A stretch of 64,000 nt of DNA from Tannerellaceae bacterium (GTDB lineage Bacteria; Bacteroidota; Bacteroidia; Bacteroidales; Tannerellaceae). The notes beneath the pieces are model-generated. The model made no database searches. It saw nothing but the letters and a program-made list of their open reading frames with translations, and was not told the origin of the DNA. The stretch lies in assembly GCA_021201865.1 (NCBI GenBank), contig JAJQEE010000158.1, positions 1 through 64,000 on the forward strand, given 5' to 3'. A program made the position numbers and the translations under genes. This document shows, piece by piece, positions 52,232 to 63,480 of this stretch (its first letter is position 1; each line of letters starts with the position of its first letter).

Positions 52232-53770
52232 ATGTTAGTCAAATCCTATGCTGCCGCTGTGCAGGGTATTTCAGCTACTATCATTACTATTGAAGTCAAT
52301 TGTTCCCGGGGAGTTCAGTTCTTTCTGGTAGGACTTCCCGATGTGGCTGTTAAAGAAAGTCATGAACGTATTATTTCTGCTTTGGAAATAAATGGCTATA
52401 GGTTTCCCAGTAAACGCATTGTTATTAATATGGCACCGGCAGATATCCGTAAAGAAGGTTCAGCCTATGACCTGCCTTTGGCAATCGGCATTTTAGCGGC
52501 CGCAGAACAATTAAATTCATCCCGGCTGGGAGATTATCTCCTGATGGGAGAACTCTCCTTAGATGGCAGCATTCTGCCTGTAAAAGGAGTTTTACCTATT
52601 GCTATCAAGGCAAAAGAAGAGGGATTTAAAGGGTTTATCCTTCCTTATCAGAATGTGTCGGAAGCAGCAGTTGTCAATGATCTGGAGGTATACGGAGTAA
52701 AAAATATAAAGGAAGTCATAGAATTTTTTAATGAAAAACGGCAATTAACCCGGACCACTGTCGATATACAGGAAACTTTTTACGAACGGCAACAACCCTT
52801 TGACTATGATTTCGCAGATGTCAGAGGACAGGAAAATGTCAAACGGGCCCTGGAAGTGGCAGCAGCGGGCGGACATAATCTGCTTATGGTCGGCCCTCCG
52901 GGTAGTGGAAAGTCCATGCTGGCTAAACGGCTTCCTTCTATCCTACCTCCTTTCACCCTTCCGGAATCGTTGGAAACAACCAAAATACATTCAGTCGCAG
53001 GAAAGATCGGTAATAATAGTTCTCTCATGATCCAACGCCCTTTCCGTGCTCCCCACCACACGATCTCGAATGTAGCGATGGTAGGCGGTGGGTCCTATCC
53101 CCAGCCCGGAGAGATCAGTCTGGCTCATAACGGTGTGCTGTTTCTGGATGAATTGCCGGAATATACCCGGAATGTACTGGAAGTCCTGCGGCAACCGTTA
53201 GAAGATCGGGTCATTACGATCTCCCGGGCCCGTTTTACGGTAGATTATCCGGCCGGCTTTATGTTAATCGCTTCGATGAATCCGTGTCCCTGTGGTTATT
53301 ACAATCATCCGGAACGGGCCTGTTTATGTTCTTCAGGAACCGTACAGAAATATATGAACCGGATCTCCGGCCCTTTACTGGACCGGATAGACATCCAGAT
53401 CGAGATCGTTCCCGTCCCTTTCGAGAAAATATCAGAAAGAAGTAGCCAGGAAGCAAGCGCCGCAGTCAGGGAACGGGTAATAAAAGCCCGTATGATCCAG
53501 GAAGAGCGTTTCAGAGAATATGAGCAGGTTCATTGTAATGCCCAGATGAGTAGTCCGCTGTTACGGAAATATGCGGCTCCGGACGAGAAGGGACTGAGTT
53601 TACTGAAAAATGCGATGGAACGGCTGAATCTGTCTGCCCGTGCGTATGACCGCATTCTAAAAGTTTCCCGGACAATTGCAGATTTGGATCAGTCAGAAAA
53701 AATAGAAGCTAATCATTTAGGAGAAGCCATCCATTACAGGAATTTAGATAGGGAAGGATGGGGAATGTAA
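52232..53770 (+). CDS. comM: YifB/ComM-like Mg-chelatase family AAA ATPase
   Basis: A 512-residue protein with the N-terminal LonC-like subdomain (VKSYAAAVQGISATIITIEV), the AAA core with Walker A GPPGSGKSMLAKRLPS and Walker B GVLFLDELPEY, and the zinc-finger-like loop NPCPCGYYNHPERACLCS. ComM is a branch-migration helicase that helps integrate incoming DNA during natural transformation in Gram-negatives. The role in Bacteroidetes is inferred from the family. Its stop lies only 11 bases from the left inverted repeat of the invertible element. Confidence 0.92.
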   Translation: MLVKSYAAAVQGISATIITIEVNCSRGVQFFLVGLPDVAVKESHERIISALEINGYRFPSKRIVINMAPADIRKEGSAYDLPLAIGILAAAEQLNSSRLGDYLLMGELSLDGSILPVKGVLPIAIKAKEEGFKGFILPYQNVSEAAVVNDLEVYGVKNIKEVIEFFNEKRQLTRTTVDIQETFYERQQPFDYDFADVRGQENVKRALEVAAAGGHNLLMVGPPGSGKSMLAKRLPSILPPFTLPESLETTKIHSVAGKIGNNSSLMIQRPFRAPHHTISNVAMVGGGSYPQPGEISLAHNGVLFLDELPEYTRNVLEVLRQPLEDRVITISRARFTVDYPAGFMLIASMNPCPCGYYNHPERACLCSSGTVQKYMNRISGPLLDRIDIQIEIVPVPFEKISERSSQEASAAVRERVIKARMIQEERFREYEQVHCNAQMSSPLLRKYAAPDEKGLSLLKNAMERLNLSARAYDRILKVSRTIADLDQSEKIEANHLGEAIHYRNLDREGWGM

Positions 53771-53781
53771 AAATATACCTG

Positions 53782-53798
53782 AGTTCTCCACGAACTAA
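53782..53798 (+). repeat. Left inverted repeat of the switch (IRL)
   Basis: AGTTCTCCACGAACTAA; its reverse complement matches the right arm at 15 of 17 positions, with a 12-bp perfect core at 53785-53796. Confidence 0.85.
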
Positions 53799-53823
53799 TT
53801 TTCTGTTTTATAATGCTTTTCAT
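53785..53823 (-). CDS. Detached 5' coding exon-like segment of the lipoprotein
   Basis: An ATG at 53823 on the minus strand opens MKSIIKQKISSWR, ending at the repeat core. In the opposite orientation these 13 codons become the N-terminus of the DUF4493/BACON lipoprotein. As assembled, the reading continues past the left repeat into antisense of comM. Confidence 0.75.
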
Positions 53824-53894
53824 ATCTGTTCGCCCCTATAATTAAGTTAGATATATACTCTGATTAGATACTTCACAATATCCCAAATTTGATG

Positions 53895-53902
53895 CAAAGT
53901 TA
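53895..53902 (-). promoter_or_regulatory. -7 box inside the invertible segment
   Basis: The minus strand reads TAACTTTG (TAnnTTTG), 71 bases upstream of the ATG at 53823. No convincing -33 TTTG is seen. Confidence 0.65.
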
Positions 53903-53986
53903 TGTAAATAAGATCTATAATATTTAAGTTTTGACCTAAAAAGAGTTAACTTCAATCATTTTTAATCTGGACCAACCTACTAAAAC

Positions 53987-54003
53987 TAAGTTCGTGGAGA
54001 GCT
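53987..54003 (-). repeat. Right inverted repeat of the switch (IRR)
   Basis: TAAGTTCGTGGAGAGCT with the perfect core at 53989-54000. It is itself coding (SSWRA) for the downstream lipoprotein. Confidence 0.85.
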
Positions 54004-55941
54004 AAGTCAATCTATCTACTTTTAACGGGTATAACAGCCGTTTCTTTTCTTATTTCCTGCGACGATGAGGGTAAAAATCGGGGAGTAGGGTATGTTTCTT
54101 TATCACTCCGGACAGACACTGCATTTGCTACTACAAAAGCGGGAAATCCGGAAGATGTAAATGAATACATCATTCAAATTCTTCAGGGCCAAACAGTAGT
54201 GAATAAATTTCCATACGCAGAAAAACCGGATGAATTAAAATTAGATGCCGGTACTTATACGGCTTCTGCTACTTGGGGAAGTGATGTAGCCGCTGCGTTT
54301 GATGCGTTATATATGGAAGGAAGTTCTGAATTTGTTATAAAAGAGGATATGACTACTACCATAGAATTGGCACCTACGCCTGCTAATGTAAAAGTGGTAG
54401 TCGATTTTTCTTCAGAATTGGGGGAAGTATATGACGACTATTATATTGATATGACTACGGGTCAGACAGGTGATACACCATTAGTATATAAAAAAAGTGA
54501 AACCCGTCCGGCATATTTTGCTGCGTCTTCTATAGGTGAAATGCTTAATTTAGCGATGATGTTTCAGGCAAATGATACAAAATATCAGTTTGATAGAAGT
54601 CTTACCATTAATCCGAGAGATTTTGTTACCCTGAAACTTAAATTAGGTGAAGAGAGTGAAGGGGCAGTTACTCCAACCATTATTTCTGATATAACCAGCC
54701 TGGTATTTCCTGCAGCGGCATTAACTACACAGGAAATAAGTGTCACTACAAATTGCGAAGACTTTACAGTTACCAAATCAGATAGCTGGTTTACAGTAGA
54801 AAAAGGAACAAATAAGATTACAGTCAGTTTAGCCAGCCCTAATACAACCAATAGTTTAAGAACGGGTTCTATCACGCTGACTGCTACCTCCGGAAATAAA
54901 ACAGCAGTAGCTGTGGTAGCACTGGCTCAAGCCACCACTGCGGGGTCGGGTGCTTATGTATATTGTCTGGAAGGATATTCTTTTAAAAATAGAAAATTAA
55001 CAGTTCGTACTACAGGTAACACATTAGAGCAGGATAATGCCAGCAAAGCATGGGTAGATATAGCAGCATCATCAGATAATCAAATCTCTATAAACACACT
55101 GAGTGAAAATACTTCCGAAGATGCACGTGAAGCAGCTGTTGGTATCACCGGAACATATGAAGGGAATGAAATTACTGATTCATTAAAAGTTACCCAACTG
55201 ACAGATATGGGTTCACCCGTCATTTCTGTTTATCAGGGAATAGAAAGTGTTAGTAAACTGAATTTTACACAGGCTGGTGGTTCGGAAAAATTAATTGTAA
55301 AAATTGAAAATGCATCGGAATGGGAATTTGTTGTTCCGGAAGATGATAAGGGATGGCTGTCTGTCTCTGAGCTGACAGATGGTAAGATTACAGTAGTTGC
55401 CACAGCTTTAGGTAGTAATGAGGCACGCTCTACCGTGTTAACGATTGCGGCCAGCAATGAAAGTAATAAAATTAGCTATTACAATATTTATATTAGCCAG
55501 GGTGTTGTAAAACCAACCCTAAATGTAACCATTACAGTAAATAGAGAGGTAGAGGGAACTTATATTTTGACAGGATATGAGGTCGACAATCCATTAAGTG
55601 AAATGAATGATCCTCAAATAACTTGTAGTGGTTTTTCAAGTGGTGAAACGATCACGATTGAGAGAGGAAAAGCAAGTTCATACTTTTTGAATCTGAGAGT
55701 TCCCAATGGTATAAAGACTTTTATTTTAAGGGGATATGGTAGTGGTGAAGTAGATTTAATAAACGGAGGGAATCCTTATTTGATATGTACTCCCAATCAA
55801 ACCAACACATTGGCTACTCTTTATCTGGACTCTTTCCTGAATTCACTGACTCAGGGTTCTAGTTATATGTTACAGTGGATTGTTACCGATAATAATAATA
55901 AACAAACAATTGTTTATCTTTCCGTAAACGTAAATAATTAA
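53989..55941 (+). CDS. DUF4493/BACON surface lipoprotein, start detached by inversion
   Basis: Reading is open from an in-frame stop at 53947 and encodes SSWRAKSIYLLLTGITAVS, then the lipobox FLISC, but has no ATG, GTG or TTG before 54199. With the switch inverted, the full lipoprotein is 659 residues and lipidated at Cys33. Domains in order: DUF4493-type beta region (about residues 40-205), a BACON domain (SLVFPAAALTTQEISVTTNC), a middle beta domain, a second BACON-like domain (NASEWEFVVPEDDKGWLSV) and a C-terminal Ig-like domain. BACON domains are linked to carbohydrate or surface adhesion. It leads an operon, the next gene beginning 2 bases after its stop. Likely surface-exposed and phase-variable; the ligand is unknown. 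Confidence 0.8.
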   Translation, partial: SSWRAKSIYLLLTGITAVSFLISCDDEGKNRGVGYVSLSLRTDTAFATTKAGNPEDVNEYIIQILQGQTVVNKFPYAEKPDELKLDAGTYTASATWGSDVAAAFDALYMEGSSEFVIKEDMTTTIELAPTPANVKVVVDFSSELGEVYDDYYIDMTTGQTGDTPLVYKKSETRPAYFAASSIGEMLNLAMMFQANDTKYQFDRSLTINPRDFVTLKLKLGEESEGAVTPTIISDITSLVFPAAALTTQEISVTTNCEDFTVTKSDSWFTVEKGTNKITVSLASPNTTNSLRTGSITLTATSGNKTAVAVVALAQATTAGSGAYVYCLEGYSFKNRKLTVRTTGNTLEQDNASKAWVDIAASSDNQISINTLSENTSEDAREAAVGITGTYEGNEITDSLKVTQLTDMGSPVISVYQGIESVSKLNFTQAGGSEKLIVKIENASEWEFVVPEDDKGWLSVSELTDGKITVVATALGSNEARSTVLTIAASNESNKISYYNIYISQGVVKPTLNVTITVNREVEGTYILTGYEVDNPLSEMNDPQITCSGFSSGETITIERGKASSYFLNLRVPNGIKTFILRGYGSGEVDLINGGNPYLICTPNQTNTLATLYLDSFLNSLTQGSSYMLQWIVTDNNNKQTIVYLSVNVNN

Positions 55942-55943
55942 AT

Positions 55944-56693
55944 ATGAAAACACTATATAGAAACTGGGTCGTCTTATTGAGTTGCCTGTTAGGTATGGTA
56001 GCTTGTTCTGAAGAGGAAGTGACGCTAACAAAGACAGGTCAGGTAAAATTTGATTTAAATGTGCAGGATATTGAATCTATCATCACCCGGTCGGATGATA
56101 TAAATGTGGATGATTTTATTGTTACGATTAAGGGAGATAACTATCAAAAAGAAAAAAGTTATGCCGAACTAAAGGGAGAAGGTACTTTAGAGCTTCCGGC
56201 TGGAATTGCTTATACTTTCGAGGCAGTTTCTTCGGCAACAGATCCGGACTTTATTTCTCAAACGCCCTTTTATAAAGGGAGTAAAGAGGAAACGATTCTG
56301 GGTGGAGAGATCGTAGCTGTAAATTTAGCCTGTGCCATGACTCAGGTAGGATTAAGCATTGATCTTTCAGCCTTATCTTCTCTTTTCAATCTGGCTGTTT
56401 CTATCCGTAAAGGGAGTACTGGAACCTTGTATCCGATGACGGTGAAGGTAAATCAAAAAACAGAGATTTATTATGTAGAACCATCCGATGATCTTCAACT
56501 TGTTATTGCTGGTAAGACATCAGAAGGGTATGAACTGGGTACACTGGGAATTAAATCATTAGCTGCGGAAGGGGTCGATAGTTCTGCTGCTAATACGTTA
56601 TGGAGTTTAAAAATTACGATAGATAATTCCGGAGTCAGAAGTTCTATCAGTGAGCGTATAGGGTTAAAAATCGAATCATCAAGTATAAACTAA
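55944..56693 (+). CDS. DUF4493 lipoprotein
   Basis: A 249-residue lipoprotein: signal peptide with lipobox GMVACSEE, then one DUF4493-type domain. Recurrent family features are visible: VKFDLNVQDIESIITRS, DDFIVTIKGDNYQKEKSYAEL, the ELPAGIAYTFEAVSS block, and PFYKGSKEETILGGE. The same order of motifs occurs in the genes on both sides, so the cluster grew by duplication. It lies 2 bases after the BACON lipoprotein gene and 4 bases before the next one, hence co-transcribed. Function unknown; surface location inferred. Confidence 0.75.
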   Translation: MKTLYRNWVVLLSCLLGMVACSEEEVTLTKTGQVKFDLNVQDIESIITRSDDINVDDFIVTIKGDNYQKEKSYAELKGEGTLELPAGIAYTFEAVSSATDPDFISQTPFYKGSKEETILGGEIVAVNLACAMTQVGLSIDLSALSSLFNLAVSIRKGSTGTLYPMTVKVNQKTEIYYVEPSDDLQLVIAGKTSEGYELGTLGIKSLAAEGVDSSAANTLWSLKITIDNSGVRSSISERIGLKIESSSIN

Positions 56694-56697
56694 TTAT

Positions 56698-58005
56698 ATG
56701 AAAAAGATATTACTTCCTATTGTAGGTTTTTTCCTTTTGCTTGCCTCTTGTGAAATGAGGGACGAAATAACCGGAGGAAAAACGGTAGAAGATGAGACGT
56801 TAGGAGCAGTGGTACTTCAATTGTCACTGAATACAACCAAGTCTACCCAGGAAAATGTGAATATCGAGGATTTTATTATTCAAATTCTTGATAAACAAAA
56901 TGAAATTGTGAAAGCATCTACCTATGCAGCTTTGGCAAAGGATGAGTATATGGTGAATCTCCCGGCGGGAGACTATAAAGTTGTTTCTGCTTCCTATGCC
57001 GGTGAAGTGGAGGAAGCTGCTTTTGATAAACCTTACTATTATGGGCAGAAAGAATTTTCTATAAAAGAGAAAGAACTGGCCACTATAAAAGATACCTGTA
57101 AACTGGGGAATGTATTAGTGGATGTTAGCTTTAAGGATGATTTCCTGAATGCTGTCAACGATGATTTTACTGTTACATTAACAAATGGAGCGGGTATCCT
57201 GAATCTATATAAAGATAATCAATCAAAGTCCTATTTTAAAGTATCCAAATCCATCAGTATTGCTGTACGTGGTAAAACAAAAAATGGACAGGATTTTTAT
57301 AAATCACAAACATTGACAGGACCGAATAATACGCTGGAAGCGGGGCATAGTTTTACCATCGTATTAGGCGTAAATGATACAATCCCTTCTACGCCTGATC
57401 CGGGACCTGAGAATCCGGGAGGAGGAGACAATCCGTCCGTTGGAGAGGGATCATTTAATATCGTAATTGATGTTACCATGAGAGACCGCGAAGAAGAAAT
57501 TGTAATCCCCCGTCCGGGTGGAGAAGATAACGGAGGCGGAGATGATAATAATGGTGGTGGAACTACGGATCCGGGAGGAAGTGATGATAAAGGGAAACCT
57601 TCTATCTCAGGAACTGGAACGTATGTGTTTGATACAAGTGCAAATTCTAAAGATCCTAATAATTCTCAGGTAAAAGTGCATTTTACTGTTCCTAATGGAC
57701 TGCAGAATCTATATGTAAATATTGAGTCAACCAGTGATGATTTTATGACGGATCCTATCCTTTCACCATTAATCTCATTTGATATTATTAATCCTGGGGA
57801 ACTGGCAGACGCATTATTACAATTAGAATTAATTCAGTCTACTGATAATAAAGGTGCAACATCTTTAACTTTTGATGTCTCTTCATTTATTTTACCTCTA
57901 TCCGGATTTGGAGAAAATACTCACTATTTTAAGTTGAGGGCAGTTGATTTACTAGGAAATACTGTTTCGGGAACATTAACTATACAAATTGTAGGTTCCT
58001 TTTAA
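56698..58005 (+). CDS. DUF4493 lipoprotein with Gly/Asp-rich linker
   Basis: A 435-residue lipoprotein (lipobox LLASCEMR). Residues about 30-240 are a DUF4493-type domain (NIEDFIIQILDKQNEIVKAS, NLPAGDYKVVSASYAG, PYYYGQKEFSIKEKE). A flexible linker rich in Gly, Asp, Asn and Pro (about residues 230-305, e.g. GGEDNGGGDDNNGGG) leads to a C-terminal domain of about 130 residues, unlike those of its neighbours. The linker suggests the tip domain is held away from the membrane. Role unknown; part of the switch-controlled operon. Confidence 0.75.
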   Translation: MKKILLPIVGFFLLLASCEMRDEITGGKTVEDETLGAVVLQLSLNTTKSTQENVNIEDFIIQILDKQNEIVKASTYAALAKDEYMVNLPAGDYKVVSASYAGEVEEAAFDKPYYYGQKEFSIKEKELATIKDTCKLGNVLVDVSFKDDFLNAVNDDFTVTLTNGAGILNLYKDNQSKSYFKVSKSISIAVRGKTKNGQDFYKSQTLTGPNNTLEAGHSFTIVLGVNDTIPSTPDPGPENPGGGDNPSVGEGSFNIVIDVTMRDREEEIVIPRPGGEDNGGGDDNNGGGTTDPGGSDDKGKPSISGTGTYVFDTSANSKDPNNSQVKVHFTVPNGLQNLYVNIESTSDDFMTDPILSPLISFDIINPGELADALLQLELIQSTDNKGATSLTFDVSSFILPLSGFGENTHYFKLRAVDLLGNTVSGTLTIQIVGSF

Positions 58006-58041
58006 GTGTTAGTGGGTATAACTAATTAAAAATAATTCAAA

Positions 58042-60089
58042 ATGAATAATACACGATTGTTTATAAAATATATCAGTTATACATTATTTGTATTACTGTC
58101 ATTTTCTTGCAATGATGAGGATAAGATAACAGAAAAATCTATTATAAAGGTTATTGTTAATACAGATAAGACAGTCTTGACTAAATCCGGAAATACAATG
58201 GACGAGGTCATTCTTAGAGTAGAACCTTTAGATAATAATGGAGTAATAACAGAATATACTTTGACAGAAGAGGAAGAGTCTGAGATAACTATAGAGCCTG
58301 GCCAATACGTAATTACAGCTATTGTTGGTAAAGATACAAAAGGCAAACCTTCAGTAGACCCATATTATCAAGGTAGTGAAACTATTAACGTTTCATCAGG
58401 AGAGACTAAAAATATTCAGATTGAATGTAAATTGACAACTGTAGTAATAGGGGTAGATTATAGTAACATTACTAGTATATATAATGGTTATGAATATGAA
58501 ACTATCGTTTCAACAACTACAGGAGAACAAATAGTTTTTTCTCAGGATGATACAAATAAGAATGGATATTTTCTTCCGGGTTCTTTGAATGTTACATTCC
58601 GGTATGGAAATAATGGAAATTGGAAAAGTGAACAAATGGATGATATTACAAATGTGATGCCCCAGCATAAATATATTATTACATACTCCATACGTGATGA
58701 TAGTAATGATGAAGGTGCAGCAGGTGTGGGAATAACTATTAGTGATATAGATGATCGGGGGGGGAACAGCAAATCCAAATAGAATTACCTAAAGTAAGTT
58801 ATTTTATTGAAGATATAGAACAGGAAAATATTGGAGATGTATATGCTTTGATTTATGGAACAGCGGAATTAAATAATGGTCAGAGTTTGAGTGATGGTAT
58901 ATATTTTGAATATTCTTCTGATAATGATCTAAATAAAACAATTCAGGCTCAACTTGTTGACGGAAAATGGATGGCTCAACTTGAAAATTTATCACCTGCT
59001 ACTAAATATAAAGTTTGGTTTAAGGGTAATGAAGAAACTGTTAAAGAGTTTACAACTGAATCTGTGACGTTAGAACCAAGTCCTTGGGCCTACTTTGCTT
59101 TTTTATATGGGAAATATAGTAAAGCAGGTGAAGAAGTTAAATTTGAGTATAAATCCTCTTCTTCAAGCTGGATACAAGTTCCTGCTATATTAAGGACAGA
59201 CGGAACTTACTATGCTTCTATTAGTGGATTAATACCAGGTGGAGAATATCAATATCGCTTGGTTACTACAGAAGGAATGGAAGGAAATATAGTAAGCTTC
59301 AAAGCAGAAGAAGAACTCCAATTACCAAATGCTGGTTTTGAAAATTGGCAAAAACCTAAAAATCCTTGGTTAATTTATGGTACAGATGAAGATATATTTT
59401 GGGATAGTGGGAATCACGGTGCTACAACTCTGAGTGCTTCAGGAAGTGTAACTACACCGGTTGAATCTCCAAAGCATAGTGGAGTGTATGCTGCTCAATT
59501 GAAATCAAGAGGTGTTTGGGCATTATTCTCTACTATCTTTGCCGGAGGGAATATGTTTACTGGGGAATATATTGGAACGAGTGGTACTTCGGGTGCAATT
59601 CTGGATTTTGGAAGACCTTTTGAAACTCGGCCGTCTAAATTAACAGGATGGTATAAATATGCACCCGGAGTAATTGATTATTCTAATACTTCAGGTATGT
59701 CGGATGAGTTAAAAAGTGAAGGTGTTGCCAAGGGAGATACTGATAAAGCACATATTTGGGTGGTATTAGGAAATTGGACTGTGGCTGAGGGTCAAAAAGG
59801 ACCTGTAAGAATAAATAATGCTAGTCGTCCAGGTGGGTTATATGACTATAAAACTGATGAAAATGTTATTGCCTATGGGGAGCTGGTTCAAACAACAGCT
59901 ACTAGTGATGATAATTTGATTCCTTTTGAAATTAAACTAAATTATTTTAATCTTGAACGGAAACCTACACACATCATAATTGTATGTTCAGCTAGTAAAT
60001 ATGCAGATTATTTTACAGGAAGTACCAGCAGTACTTTATGGCTGGATGATTTTGAGTTAATCTATGACGATAGTCCTTTAACAAACTAA
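58042..60089 (+). pseudogene. DUF4493-PCMD lipoprotein, frameshift at a G8 tract
   Basis: Joined, this is a lipoprotein of about 681 residues: lipobox LLSFSC, a DUF4493-type domain (MDEVILRVEPLDNNGVITEY, PYYQGSETINVSS), then fibronectin-like linkers and a C-terminal PCMD (putative carbohydrate metabolism) domain from about GFENWQKPKNPWLIYG to STLWLDDFELIYD. A run of eight G at 58757-58764 breaks the frame; six G (or nine) would join SDIDDRG to NQQIQIELPKVSYF-like sequence. The pieces are the DUF4493 part (246 residues, anchored) and an orphan PCMD part. Whether the tract is a phase-variation site or an assembly error cannot be decided here. Confidence 0.8.
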
Positions 60090-60102
60090 ATAACTAATAA
60101 AG

Positions 60103-60124
60103 CCCCGGAAATAGCTTTTCGGGG
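60103..60124 (+). terminator. Weak hairpin between PCMD and barrel genes
   Basis: CCCCG (60103-60107) pairs with CGGGG (60120-60124), followed by a short T-rich tract. The stem is short, so termination is likely partial. Confidence 0.45.
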
Positions 60125-60125
60125 T

Positions 60126-60133
60126 TAATTTTG
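60126..60133 (+). promoter_or_regulatory. -7 box abutting the barrel gene start
   Basis: TAATTTTG (TAnnTTTG) ends 5 bases before the ATG at 60139, so transcription from it would give almost no leader. Confidence 0.45.
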
Positions 60134-60138
60134 TTTAT

Positions 60139-60875
60139 ATGAAAAAATTGATTTCTATTACACTTATGTTTTGCCTTTGTGTAATTTCTATGAGTGCTGA
60201 GAACAAACAAGAATTCGACCGTGGAATAAAAGTAACCACCTTCATTCCTAAAGGATTATGGATGGTAGGGGGTACTTTTTCCTATGCAGAATCCAATGCG
60301 GAAGATTTTAAATTACTTGTTTTAAAGAATATTGAGTATAAATCCTATACCTTTAGTCTAAGTCCCGGATTTTGTTACTTCTTCAGGGATAATGTAGGTG
60401 CTGGTGCACGCTTTTCGTATTCCCGGGATTATATTGATATTGGTAATATTGATATTGCGTTGAATGATGACCTGACTTTTGAAATTCAGAATGCTTCTTT
60501 AGTGGAGCACATGTTTTATGGAACAGGTTTTATCCGTACGTATATGAATATTGCAGGTAGTAAGGTGTTCGGTTTGTTTAATGAAGCCAGGCTTACATTT
60601 GGCGCCGGGCAGGGAAAACTTTTTCCGGTGAAGGAGAAACTTTAGACGGAGTCTATCAAAAGGTAAAACGGTTGCAGGTAGGTATCTCACCCGGTATGGC
60701 TGCGTTTATTACTAACAATGCCGCTATAGAAGTTTCTGTAGGAGTGATGGGTTTTGACTCCAGATGGGTTAATCAGGACCATAATAAAGTAGTGGAAGGC
60801 TCGTTTCGTTCTACTTCTGCTAAGTTTAAGATTGACTTATTTTCAATTAATCTGGGTATGTCTTATTATTTTTAA
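60139..60875 (+). pseudogene. Outer-membrane beta-barrel protein, frameshifted
   Basis: Joined, this is a 245-residue outer-membrane protein: signal peptide MKKLISITLMFCLCVISMSA, then alternating strands typical of 8-stranded barrels (GLWMVGGTFSYAE, SLSPGFCYFFRDNVGAGARF), ending in the classic terminal aromatic SINLGMSYYF. Four A at 60615-60618 need to be five: reading then passes from AGQGK to TFSGEGETLDGVYQK. As written the protein stops after 168 residues and lacks its last strands, so it could not fold. It lies between two PCMD genes and may anchor or export them; that is inference. Confidence 0.75.
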
Positions 60876-60880
60876 TAACT

Positions 60881-62549
60881 ATGAAAAAGTATACTGGAAA
60901 TATAATAGGTAAATATGGCCTTAGCTTATTTTTTATAAGCACGCTTCTGTTGTTCGGATGTATTGAAAATGATGTGGATTATCCGTATACCCCGGGAGAA
61001 ATTGAAACGTTTGAAGTAGAAGGAATCACTCAGGCAGCGGATATTGTAAAGAGTACGCGTACGGTAGAGGTAATAGTCGATGAAACAGTAGATATATATG
61101 ATCTCCGGATAACAAGAATGACTGTTACAAATGATGCAGCTATTTATCCTGAAAGTGAAAAAGTAGTCAATAAAGATGCTTCTTTTCCGGAGCACGGATT
61201 TGCTGCTTTAGATAGTATTCCCCTGGGTACGGATACGAGAATAGACTTTAGTCAACCAGTAAACTTCCTGTTACAAACCTATCAGGATTATGATTGGACC
61301 ATTAAAGTGACCCAAACCATTAGCCGGGATATTAATTTTAGCGGAGATATACGCATAGGGGAGCCGGTATTTGACTATGAGAGAAAACAGGCTATTGTAT
61401 ATGTAAAAGAGGGTACAGATCTTTCTAATCTTACAGTCACTTCTTTTAAATTAGGAAGTTCGTTAGCTACAACAACCCCTAGTCCATTTGCCGTGAAAGA
61501 TTTCTCGAATGTAGTCTATTTTGATGTGACTGCGTTTGGAAGAACGGAAACATGGGGAGTCAATGTGTTGTATAAAGATGAAAGTGATGTCTCTACTAAT
61601 TTGTATGCCAGAAGTAAGCAAGCTATTTTAGTGGGCGAGATGGCTAGTGGTGTGGCATTAGAAGTCCAATATAAAGAAAGAAACCAGGAGAGTTGGATGA
61701 GTCTTAACTCAGGTGATATTATCCTTAGTAGTAACTCCTATACCGCTACCATCACCGGTCTGACTCCTTCAACAAATTATCAGGCTCGTGTAGTGATGGG
61801 TGGAAGTATAGGAGAAGAGATCGATTTTACAACAGCTACTGCTGAAGTACTGAATAATGGTAGTTTTGATAACTGGCATCAGGACCCCAGCAAAACAAAT
61901 ATATGGAATCCCTGGGCATTGGATGCCAGCCAATTCTGGGACACAGGAAACAGGGGGGGCTACTTCGTTGAACAATACAACTCCTAGTAATACCTCTCCT
62001 TCAACAGAAACAAGTAAAGGATCGGGATATGCAGCGATGTTAGAATCAAAATACATTGTCCTTAAATTTGCTGCAGGAAATATCTTTACAGGAACTTATG
62101 TGAGAACAGATGGTACAGATGGTGTGCTGAGTTTTGGACGGCCTTTTACTTCTTATCCTACTAAGCTTAGAATTAATTATAAGTATACTTCTGCAACGAT
62201 TAATCGTACAAATTCTTCCTACGGGTATGAGTATCTGGAAGGAAGGCCGGACTCTTGTTTTATATATGTTGCTTTGACCGACTGGGATGCACCCAGGGAG
62301 ATACGAACAAAACCTAAAGAGCAACAATTATTTGATACGAAAGATAGTAATATTATAGCGTATGGAGAGTTTACCTCCGGAACAACATCTTCCCGTTACC
62401 AACAATTAGATGTAGAATTAGAGTATAGAAACTACAGAACCCCTAAATATTTAGTTATTGTTTGTACGGCTAGTAAATATGGGGATTATTTTGCCGGAGG
62501 AGAAGGAAGTACGTTATGGCTGGATGAATTTGAACTACTCTATGATTAG
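60881..62549 (+). pseudogene. PCMD-domain lipoprotein, frameshift at a G7 tract
   Basis: Joined, this is a lipoprotein of about 555 residues: lipobox LLFGCIEN, N-terminal Ig-like domains (residues about 35-230), a fibronectin-like segment and a C-terminal PCMD domain (GSFDNWHQDPSKTNIWNPW to STLWLDEFELLYD) that is clearly paralogous to that of the 58042 gene. Seven G at 61953-61959 break the frame; six would give FWDTGNRGATSLNNTTPSN, matching FWDSGNHGATTLSASGS in the paralogue. The break falls in the middle of the PCMD domain. It follows the barrel gene after 5 bases and ends at a strong terminator. Confidence 0.8.
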
Positions 62550-62570
62550 AGTATATGGTAATAAAGTAAA

Positions 62571-62600
62571 AAAGAGGTATTATATTTATAATACCTCTTT
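62571..62600 (+). terminator. Strong terminator ending the surface operon
   Basis: A perfect 14-bp stem (62571-62584 with 62587-62600) followed by TTTT marks the end of the lipoprotein/barrel operon. Confidence 0.92.
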
Positions 62601-62790
62601 TTTTATCTATTTATCTGCTGAACTGTTATTTGTTTAAATTAAAAGTCTATCTAAATTAATTTATGTTTCTTTTATATTGTTAATTGTGTGTAATATAATT
62701 CTTTTATATGGGTTTTTAAATAGGAATAAATCAATTGTTTATTTTAATATACTTATATTTACAAATATATACTAATCTGATTGTGATTTT

Positions 62791-62798
62791 TAATTTTG
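62791..62798 (+). promoter_or_regulatory. -7 box for the LamG-like gene
   Basis: TAATTTTG matches TAnnTTTG, 25 bases before the ATG at 62824. Confidence 0.5.
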
Positions 62799-62823
62799 TT
62801 CATAACCATTAATAATTAATCAA

Positions 62824-63480
62824 ATGAAAACTAATCAGGAAAAAGCCGCTATTAAATGGGTCATGCTGGACCACTGTGACCGCGAAGTTACAACAGATCC
62901 TATAGGGAATACAGTAGAAAGTACGGGAGGAGTGTATCAAACCTCTTTCCTTTCCAATTATGGAAATGCAAAAATAGCAGATACTATAAATTGGAGAGAC
63001 CTTCCAACTGCAAACCAATTTAATTTGCTGAGCGATGAATTTACTATTGAATTCTATATTAATCCTACTTCAAATACAGGACAATTTATTATTTGGTTAA
63101 TAACGGATTTTACTGTCAATGATCCTCGTGGATTGTCATTAGGATTTTCTAATGGAGATTTAGTCGTATTTACTAAAACAAATACCTCTGACAAAATAAG
63201 TTTTAATCAGGCATATGAGGTTAATAAACCCTTATATGTTACTTTTATTGCTAATCGCTCGGTAGCTTCTCCTTGTATAGAACTTTATTTGAATGGAGTA
63301 TTTAGGAGTAGTATATCTTTCTCATCCATAGATACTGCAAGTTTACTAACGGGAAAGGTATTTAAAATCTATGAGTTAGGAAACTGGTATCCTACCCTTT
63401 TCGATGAAGTTGCTGTAAGAACAGGTAGAGCCTATGAAAGAACAGGCTTTACACCTCCAACAAGACCTTTCTCCGTATAA
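62824..63480 (+). CDS. LamG/concanavalin-like domain protein
   Basis: A 218-residue protein that looks like a single LamG/concanavalin-A-like jelly roll, with EFTIEFYINPTSNTGQFIIWL, CIELYLNGVFRSSISFSS and YELGNWYPTLFDEVAVRTG as the characteristic strands. There is no signal peptide or lipobox, and no upstream in-frame start would add one, so an export route is unclear. It has its own promoter after the operon terminator and so is probably independent of the switch. The function is unknown. Confidence 0.6.
   Translation: MKTNQEKAAIKWVMLDHCDREVTTDPIGNTVESTGGVYQTSFLSNYGNAKIADTINWRDLPTANQFNLLSDEFTIEFYINPTSNTGQFIIWLITDFTVNDPRGLSLGFSNGDLVVFTKTNTSDKISFNQAYEVNKPLYVTFIANRSVASPCIELYLNGVFRSSISFSSIDTASLLTGKVFKIYELGNWYPTLFDEVAVRTGRAYERTGFTPPTRPFSV

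Follow-up and report, generated by a model that had tools for sequence, protein, structure and literature searches.

How could a lipoprotein be made from a gene whose reading frame covers the signal sequence and has no start codon? This question is raised by a locus of a Tannerellaceae bacterium (assembly GCA_021201865.1, contig JAJQEE010000158.1, positions 1 to 64,000; this whole stretch of 64,000 nucleotides is called the window here). A 192-bp segment, bounded by two inverted sites, sits between a yifB-family gene and a gene for a DUF4493/BACON lipoprotein. I consider it probable, at about 77%, that a tyrosine recombinase encoded elsewhere flips this segment, supplying the ATG and first codons and switching the lipoprotein gene on. 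The features concerned are these:

53782..53796, no strand: left recombination site AGTTC-TCCAC-GAACT (from the sequence and a profile score of 21.6, with the site left out of training)
53785..53823, minus strand: ATG and 12 further codons (MKSIIKQKISSWR), which inversion in silico would join to the lipoprotein frame
53797..53988, no strand: 192-bp segment bounded by the sites; its inversion is predicted from the repeat and the site positions
53833..53837, minus strand: AGGGG, a possible ribosome-binding site by its sequence
53895..53902, minus strand: TAACTTTG, a putative -7 promoter element by its fit to the Bacteroidales -7 element
53989..54003, no strand: right recombination site AGTTC-GTGGA-GAGCT, with one deviating arm base; its translation is SSWRA (from the sequence and a profile score of 19.3)
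54004..55941, plus strand: DUF4493 and BACON lipoprotein gene with lipobox LISC, without a start codon as assembled (from sequence and domains)

Where is the start codon? The lipoprotein frame is open from 53950, and the first in-frame ATG, GTG or TTG from the site on is GTG 54199, 70 codons on and beyond the signal sequence of the gene. Since there is no such codon in frame between 53950 and 54199, a start lying outside the segment could not yield the signal sequence. On the minus strand, the captured ATG begins at 53823. When the segment was inverted in silico between the spacers, MKSIIKQKISSWR and AKSIYLLLTGITAVSFLISC were joined in frame, and the joined frame holds a complete lipoprotein-type signal sequence beginning with the captured ATG. 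The repeat itself is translated in this frame. The original prediction, made from the letters of the window, thus holds in its main elements: the gene open upstream without a start, the TAACTTTG, AGGGG and ATG on the opposite strand (53902-53895, 53837-53833 and 53823), and the in-frame join that yields a lipoprotein signal sequence.

What bounds the segment? The arms of the inverted repeat are 24 nucleotides long (53779-53802 and 53983-54006) and 83% complementary. Repeats of 17 bp with a perfect 12-bp core had been proposed; the core stands, while the natural unit of the repeat is a 15-bp site, AGTTC-N5-GAACT. In the whole 4.2-Mb assembly, the exact core AGTTCGTGGAGA is present just twice, once per strand and both times at the locus. 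The reversed-pattern control of AGTTCGTGGAGA has no occurrence in the same assembly. With up to two mismatches, the 14-mer GTTCTCCACGAACT matches three places in the window, two of them being the locus sites, against 0.27 expected in shuffles. Both locus sites carry one spacer, read on opposite strands, and the sites are inverted to each other. A site profile was trained on 40 sites outside the metagenome-assembled genome (MAG) Roe453, and these training sites score from 14.7 to 27.9; the third-best place in the window scores only 11.3, against 21.6 and 19.3 for the locus sites. The profile shows that the palindrome extends weakly, with C-A-T before and A-T-G after, most strongly in Roe453. 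As in an inverton, inverted repeats bound a short segment beside a predicted surface gene.

Does this site recur? Paired sites with matching spacers, a further mark of invertons, are found at other loci. In the window's own genome (G000), the exact AGTTC-N5-GAACT site was counted 12 times, and its reversed pattern does not occur. Four inverted pairs account for eight of these sites; the left site of the window is another, and three stand alone. Within each of these four other pairs the spacers are identical, and each pair has its private N5.

Own inverted pairs, bp between site starts: contig C31, 311; contig C95, 188; contig C104, 157; contig C207, 842

I searched public genome contigs for pairs with 140-170 bp between sites and obtained 82 pairs in 75 stretches. 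Of these pairs, 35 are inverted and have identical spacers, 26 are direct and 21 unrelated. A matching inverted spacer has a chance of about 1/1024 and was seen in 35/82 pairs; thus, the paired sites are not due to chance. By record title, all 35 come from Bacteroidales (Parabacteroides, Tannerellaceae, Phocaeicola plebeius and unnamed Bacteroidales), and 19 of them stem from one MAG, Roe453_bin44. The remaining 47 pairs include four with Bacteroidales titles (L097, L119, L133 and L139). Among the family genomes, 18/123 have pairs by a search with exact arms and 140-200 bp between sites, which undercounts, catching 2/5 of the own pairs. It counted 57 pairs and listed 53, and 50 of the latter have matching spacers by reading. 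The non-matching ones are one pair in G005 and both pairs in G096, a genome dropped from the later recombinase count. As a side observation, the 1.6-Mb MAG Roe453_bin44 (G026, loci L077-L132) has about 20 inverted pairs, many of them before genes that look glycosyltransferase-like by eye.

Which enzyme would act on these sites? The original prediction left the choice between serine and tyrosine recombinases; the shape of the site and the distribution of recombinases favour a trans-acting enzyme of the tyrosine family. Judged by its pair coordinates, G026 (77% complete) is apparently Roe453; it bears 20 pairs, with just three PF00589 genes. Of these genes, one is a counterpart (52% identical) of a 407-residue recombinase on contig C95 of the own genome, which has further counterparts in G003 (76%) and G005 (64%). 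Among the recombinases of the other three genomes compared, nothing matches the remaining two G026 genes above 45%. Contig C95 also bears an inverted pair about 5 kb from the recombinase gene. The C95 recombinase has Arm-DNA-bind_5, SAM-like and Phage_integrase domains. Residues R251, K278, H340, R343, H366 and Y375 are invariant across 22 aligned orthologs, and I take them to be the catalytic ones.

An ortholog of the C95 recombinase (at least 46% identity) is found in 15/17 pair-bearing family genomes versus 26/106 others (p 7e-7), or in 16/17 if a contig-end piece in G046 is counted (p 5e-8), these p-values carrying no correction for shared ancestry. A control recombinase, L054, does not track the pair-bearing genomes; among its matches listed, those that are full-length and reach at least 50% are confined to G000 and G002, and G058 and G077 have partial matches. 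The C95 tyrosine recombinase is a candidate invertase, by correlation and not by proof. A local enzyme was also considered and rejected: the own recombinases (13 queries, so that unlike recombinases would escape) were compared with the 75 public stretches, and on pair-bearing stretches they match only one XerD-like gene (L098). Because local matches are so few, a trans-acting enzyme is preferred. The own genome also has three paralogous invertase-like tyrosine recombinases, 60-74% alike, at C207:8806-19941 and C104:24612-25547.

Is the start codon captured at other pairs? By an open-frame test, the start of the nearest outward gene falls outside the segment for the majority of the 35 public pairs; the genes behind them, named by eye and with no domain search, are SusC-type receptors, glycosyltransferase-like genes and others. 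At the own C31 pair (G000:C31:6427-6752; L032 and L247), the ATG and signal peptide of a SusC gene lie inside the segment, which is assembled ON. This gene encodes 992 residues with TonB plug, barrel and CarboxypepD_reg, and the site codes for VLDEL of the CarboxypepD_reg motif. Judging by the open frame, the start probably lies inside the segment also at L089, where no domain was found, and at L132, a methyltransferase-like fragment. The two sites of the C207 pair (G000:C207:49314-50170; L248 and L066), 842 bp apart, are wholly inside an 830-residue gene just upstream of a SusC-like gene. The product is regulator-like with a Y_Y_Y domain. This is a predicted intragenic switch, the inversion of which would break the frame.

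Is there a promoter in the segment? It is likely that there is, on the basis of the one -7 element; TAACTTTG fits the Bacteroidales -7 element. The consensus TAnnTTTG occurs in 15/39 segments (35 public and four own; the C207 segment was left out for its length), against 8.4 on average and at most 15 over 100 shuffles. As proof of a promoter, this consensus was rejected as weak. As assembled, the locus would be OFF, having no start codon and a putative promoter facing back to yifB.

Taken together, the mechanism would run as follows. Two inverted AGTTC-N5-GAACT sites would bound a segment that carries the missing ATG and first codons on the opposite strand, and presumably a promoter. A tyrosine recombinase would likely flip the segment, with the 407-residue C95 recombinase possibly acting in trans, and the identical 5-bp spacers may confine the exchange to the two sites of one locus. 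The inversion is predicted to join the start to the frame, and the gene would be on. A wider proposal is close to an even bet, and I hold it tentatively. One trans-acting tyrosine recombinase with barcode-like private spacers might drive mixed switches in one genome, namely promoter flips (C95 and C104), start-codon flips (the lipoprotein and SusC genes) and an intragenic regulator flip (C207). A site that has slid across the start codon might make a leaky transcriptional switch a double lock of transcription and translation.

Several results weigh against the start-codon switch. The ON orientation of the locus was not seen when 5.8 billion proteins were searched with the joined form. The search gave seven matches, of which four were read; the nearest, P0001, which is labelled as a Tannerellaceae MAG and shares 93% identity in the searched region, starts internally, at MGYVSLSL. 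This late start is as expected if the P0001 assembly also lacks the upstream start and is OFF-like. P0002-P0004 (44-51%) each have an ordinary signal sequence of their own at the N-terminus. No -33 TTTG exists at the usual spacing from TAACTTTG. Of the predicted switch of both promoter and start codon, the start half stands, with the start and first 13 codons inside the segment and the repeat translated, and the promoter half is weak. One base in the arm of the right site does not match. Among 5000 dinucleotide-shuffled segments, 14.6% produce a joined ATG, and 11.4% do so while also lacking a start as assembled. The joined ATG was therefore rejected as proof by itself and is weak evidence when taken alone; the case rests on the site family and on a lipoprotein signal sequence that is complete except for the start it needs upstream. 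As for the enzyme, besides the shared ancestry that its p-values leave in, the association of ortholog and pairs has p = 0.09 in the largest genus (1e-5 outside it). G058 has pairs and no C95 ortholog was found in it, and 26 genomes have the ortholog and no listed pair, including the same-genus G002 (92%) and G004 (77%).

Could the segment be an ordinary invertible promoter that acts through transcription alone, with the captured ATG a coincidence and the true translation start at another place? The start codons outside the segment at most public pairs and the yield of joined ATGs in shuffles would agree with this, yet the frame as assembled offers no alternative start between 53950 and 54199, which makes this explanation improbable. 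A relic would explain the arm mismatch and the OFF-like forms at the locus and in P0001, the only forms at hand: decay of the right site, or an enzyme that has ceased to act on the locus, would have left the switch stuck OFF and the gene unexpressed. However, the lipoprotein frame is intact over its full length, as are the following genes; the spacer is still identical on both sides, and both locus sites score within the training range. I regard a relic as unlikely, though less so than the ordinary promoter.

It is also possible that the same switch is served by a different own recombinase of the tyrosine or resolvase family. With 15 PF00589 matches and one resolvase-family gene, the own genome offers other candidates, and the link to C95 is a correlation. 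Set against this are G026, where 20 pairs go with only three PF00589 genes that include the C95-type ortholog, and the control L054, which lacks a full-length match of at least 50% outside G000 and G002 among the matches listed. Another enzyme is a serious, if rather doubtful, alternative. That nothing inverts and the palindromes are binding sites of a regulator is suggested by each site being itself a short palindrome. But the private spacers, which match only within a locus and inverted, fit recombination sites, and one pair (C207) lies inside coding sequence; I give this explanation very little credence. The predicted flip of the segment by a trans-acting tyrosine recombinase remains the preferred reading.

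The genes around the switch are as follows:

52232..53770, plus strand: yifB-family ATPase gene upstream of the switch (from domains)
55944..63480, plus strand: genes after the lipoprotein gene, three more DUF4493, two PCMD and others (from domains); predicted operon

The shared strand and mostly short gaps suggest that the lipoprotein gene and the following genes form one operon, and the lipoproteins are presumably surface-exposed. Is the arrangement conserved? A yifB match was found in 113 family genomes, and 30 of these loci were read, one of them with only 348 bp downstream. A DUF4493-like gene lies directly 3′ of yifB in G003, G004 and G070 (the last by eye, with no domain search). None of the three has an AGTTC-N5-GAACT pair at this locus, and no repeat was found after yifB in G004 and G070 (G070 again judged by eye). 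In the same-genus relative G003 (L006; G003:C233, reverse strand 1162-1373), a 14-bp inverted repeat of other sequence lies between yifB and the DUF4493 gene. The start codon is outside it. Its site-profile scores are -6.8 and -4.1, on which it was rejected as a member of the same site class; it may be due to chance.

How does the predicted switch compare with known systems? In Bacteroides fragilis, the tyrosine-recombinase switches of Tsr19/BF2766 and Tsr0667 are described as promoter inversions or gene shuffling (PMC4747536, PMC11852207). They share with this locus chromosomal inverted repeats beside surface genes, and there the enzyme acts both locally and at a distance, SusC/SusD shufflons included. 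Unlike in those descriptions, the start and first codons ride on the segment here. The AGTTC-N5-GAACT site class itself may already be known, for example if Tsr0667 uses the same site. The S-layer lipoprotein gene BT1927 of B. thetaiotaomicron, with the repeat CCGTTACCTABVRAGTAAC and an integrase nearby, is phase-variable behind an invertible promoter (PMC12548429, PMC12118408). It is likewise a Bacteroidales surface-protein gene with a switch, whereas its GTTAC-N-GTAAC-type repeat (PMC12118408) belongs to another class than the present sites.

At the sequence level, the locus resembles vsa of Mycoplasma pulmonis, in that the start codon and the 5′ coding end lie on DNA that is predicted to invert. 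In Ureaplasma UU172, one inverted repeat is inside the reading frame (PMC3047005). Unlike in vsa and Ureaplasma mba/UU172, where alternative genes are exchanged, one gene would be turned on and off here, and in another phylum. The sharing of one 5′ end by several genes, a vsa feature, is absent, the 12-bp core being present only at the two locus places. In a survey of gene-intersecting invertons, 952/1837 invertons overlap coding sequence (PMC11892184); the present segment does so too, spanning the upstream region and the start codon. The literature searched, as far as its text was available, gave no description of a Bacteroidales switch that inverts a start codon, and one may exist in print. 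The principle is already known. As far as the sources go, two things are new: the use of this principle to lock a single Bacteroidales lipoprotein gene on or off, and the set of AGTTC-N5-GAACT sites together with a candidate enzyme.

What would such a switch mean? A promoter flip keeps an intact reading frame, whereas a start-removing switch, when off, could not make the signal sequence. In OFF assemblies, gene callers truncate such genes, as exemplified by the list of open reading frames for this window, which begins the lipoprotein gene at GTG 54199, and by the late-starting P0001. With its private spacers and a candidate recombinase, the site class allows the set to be searched for in Tannerellaceae and tested by mapping reads.
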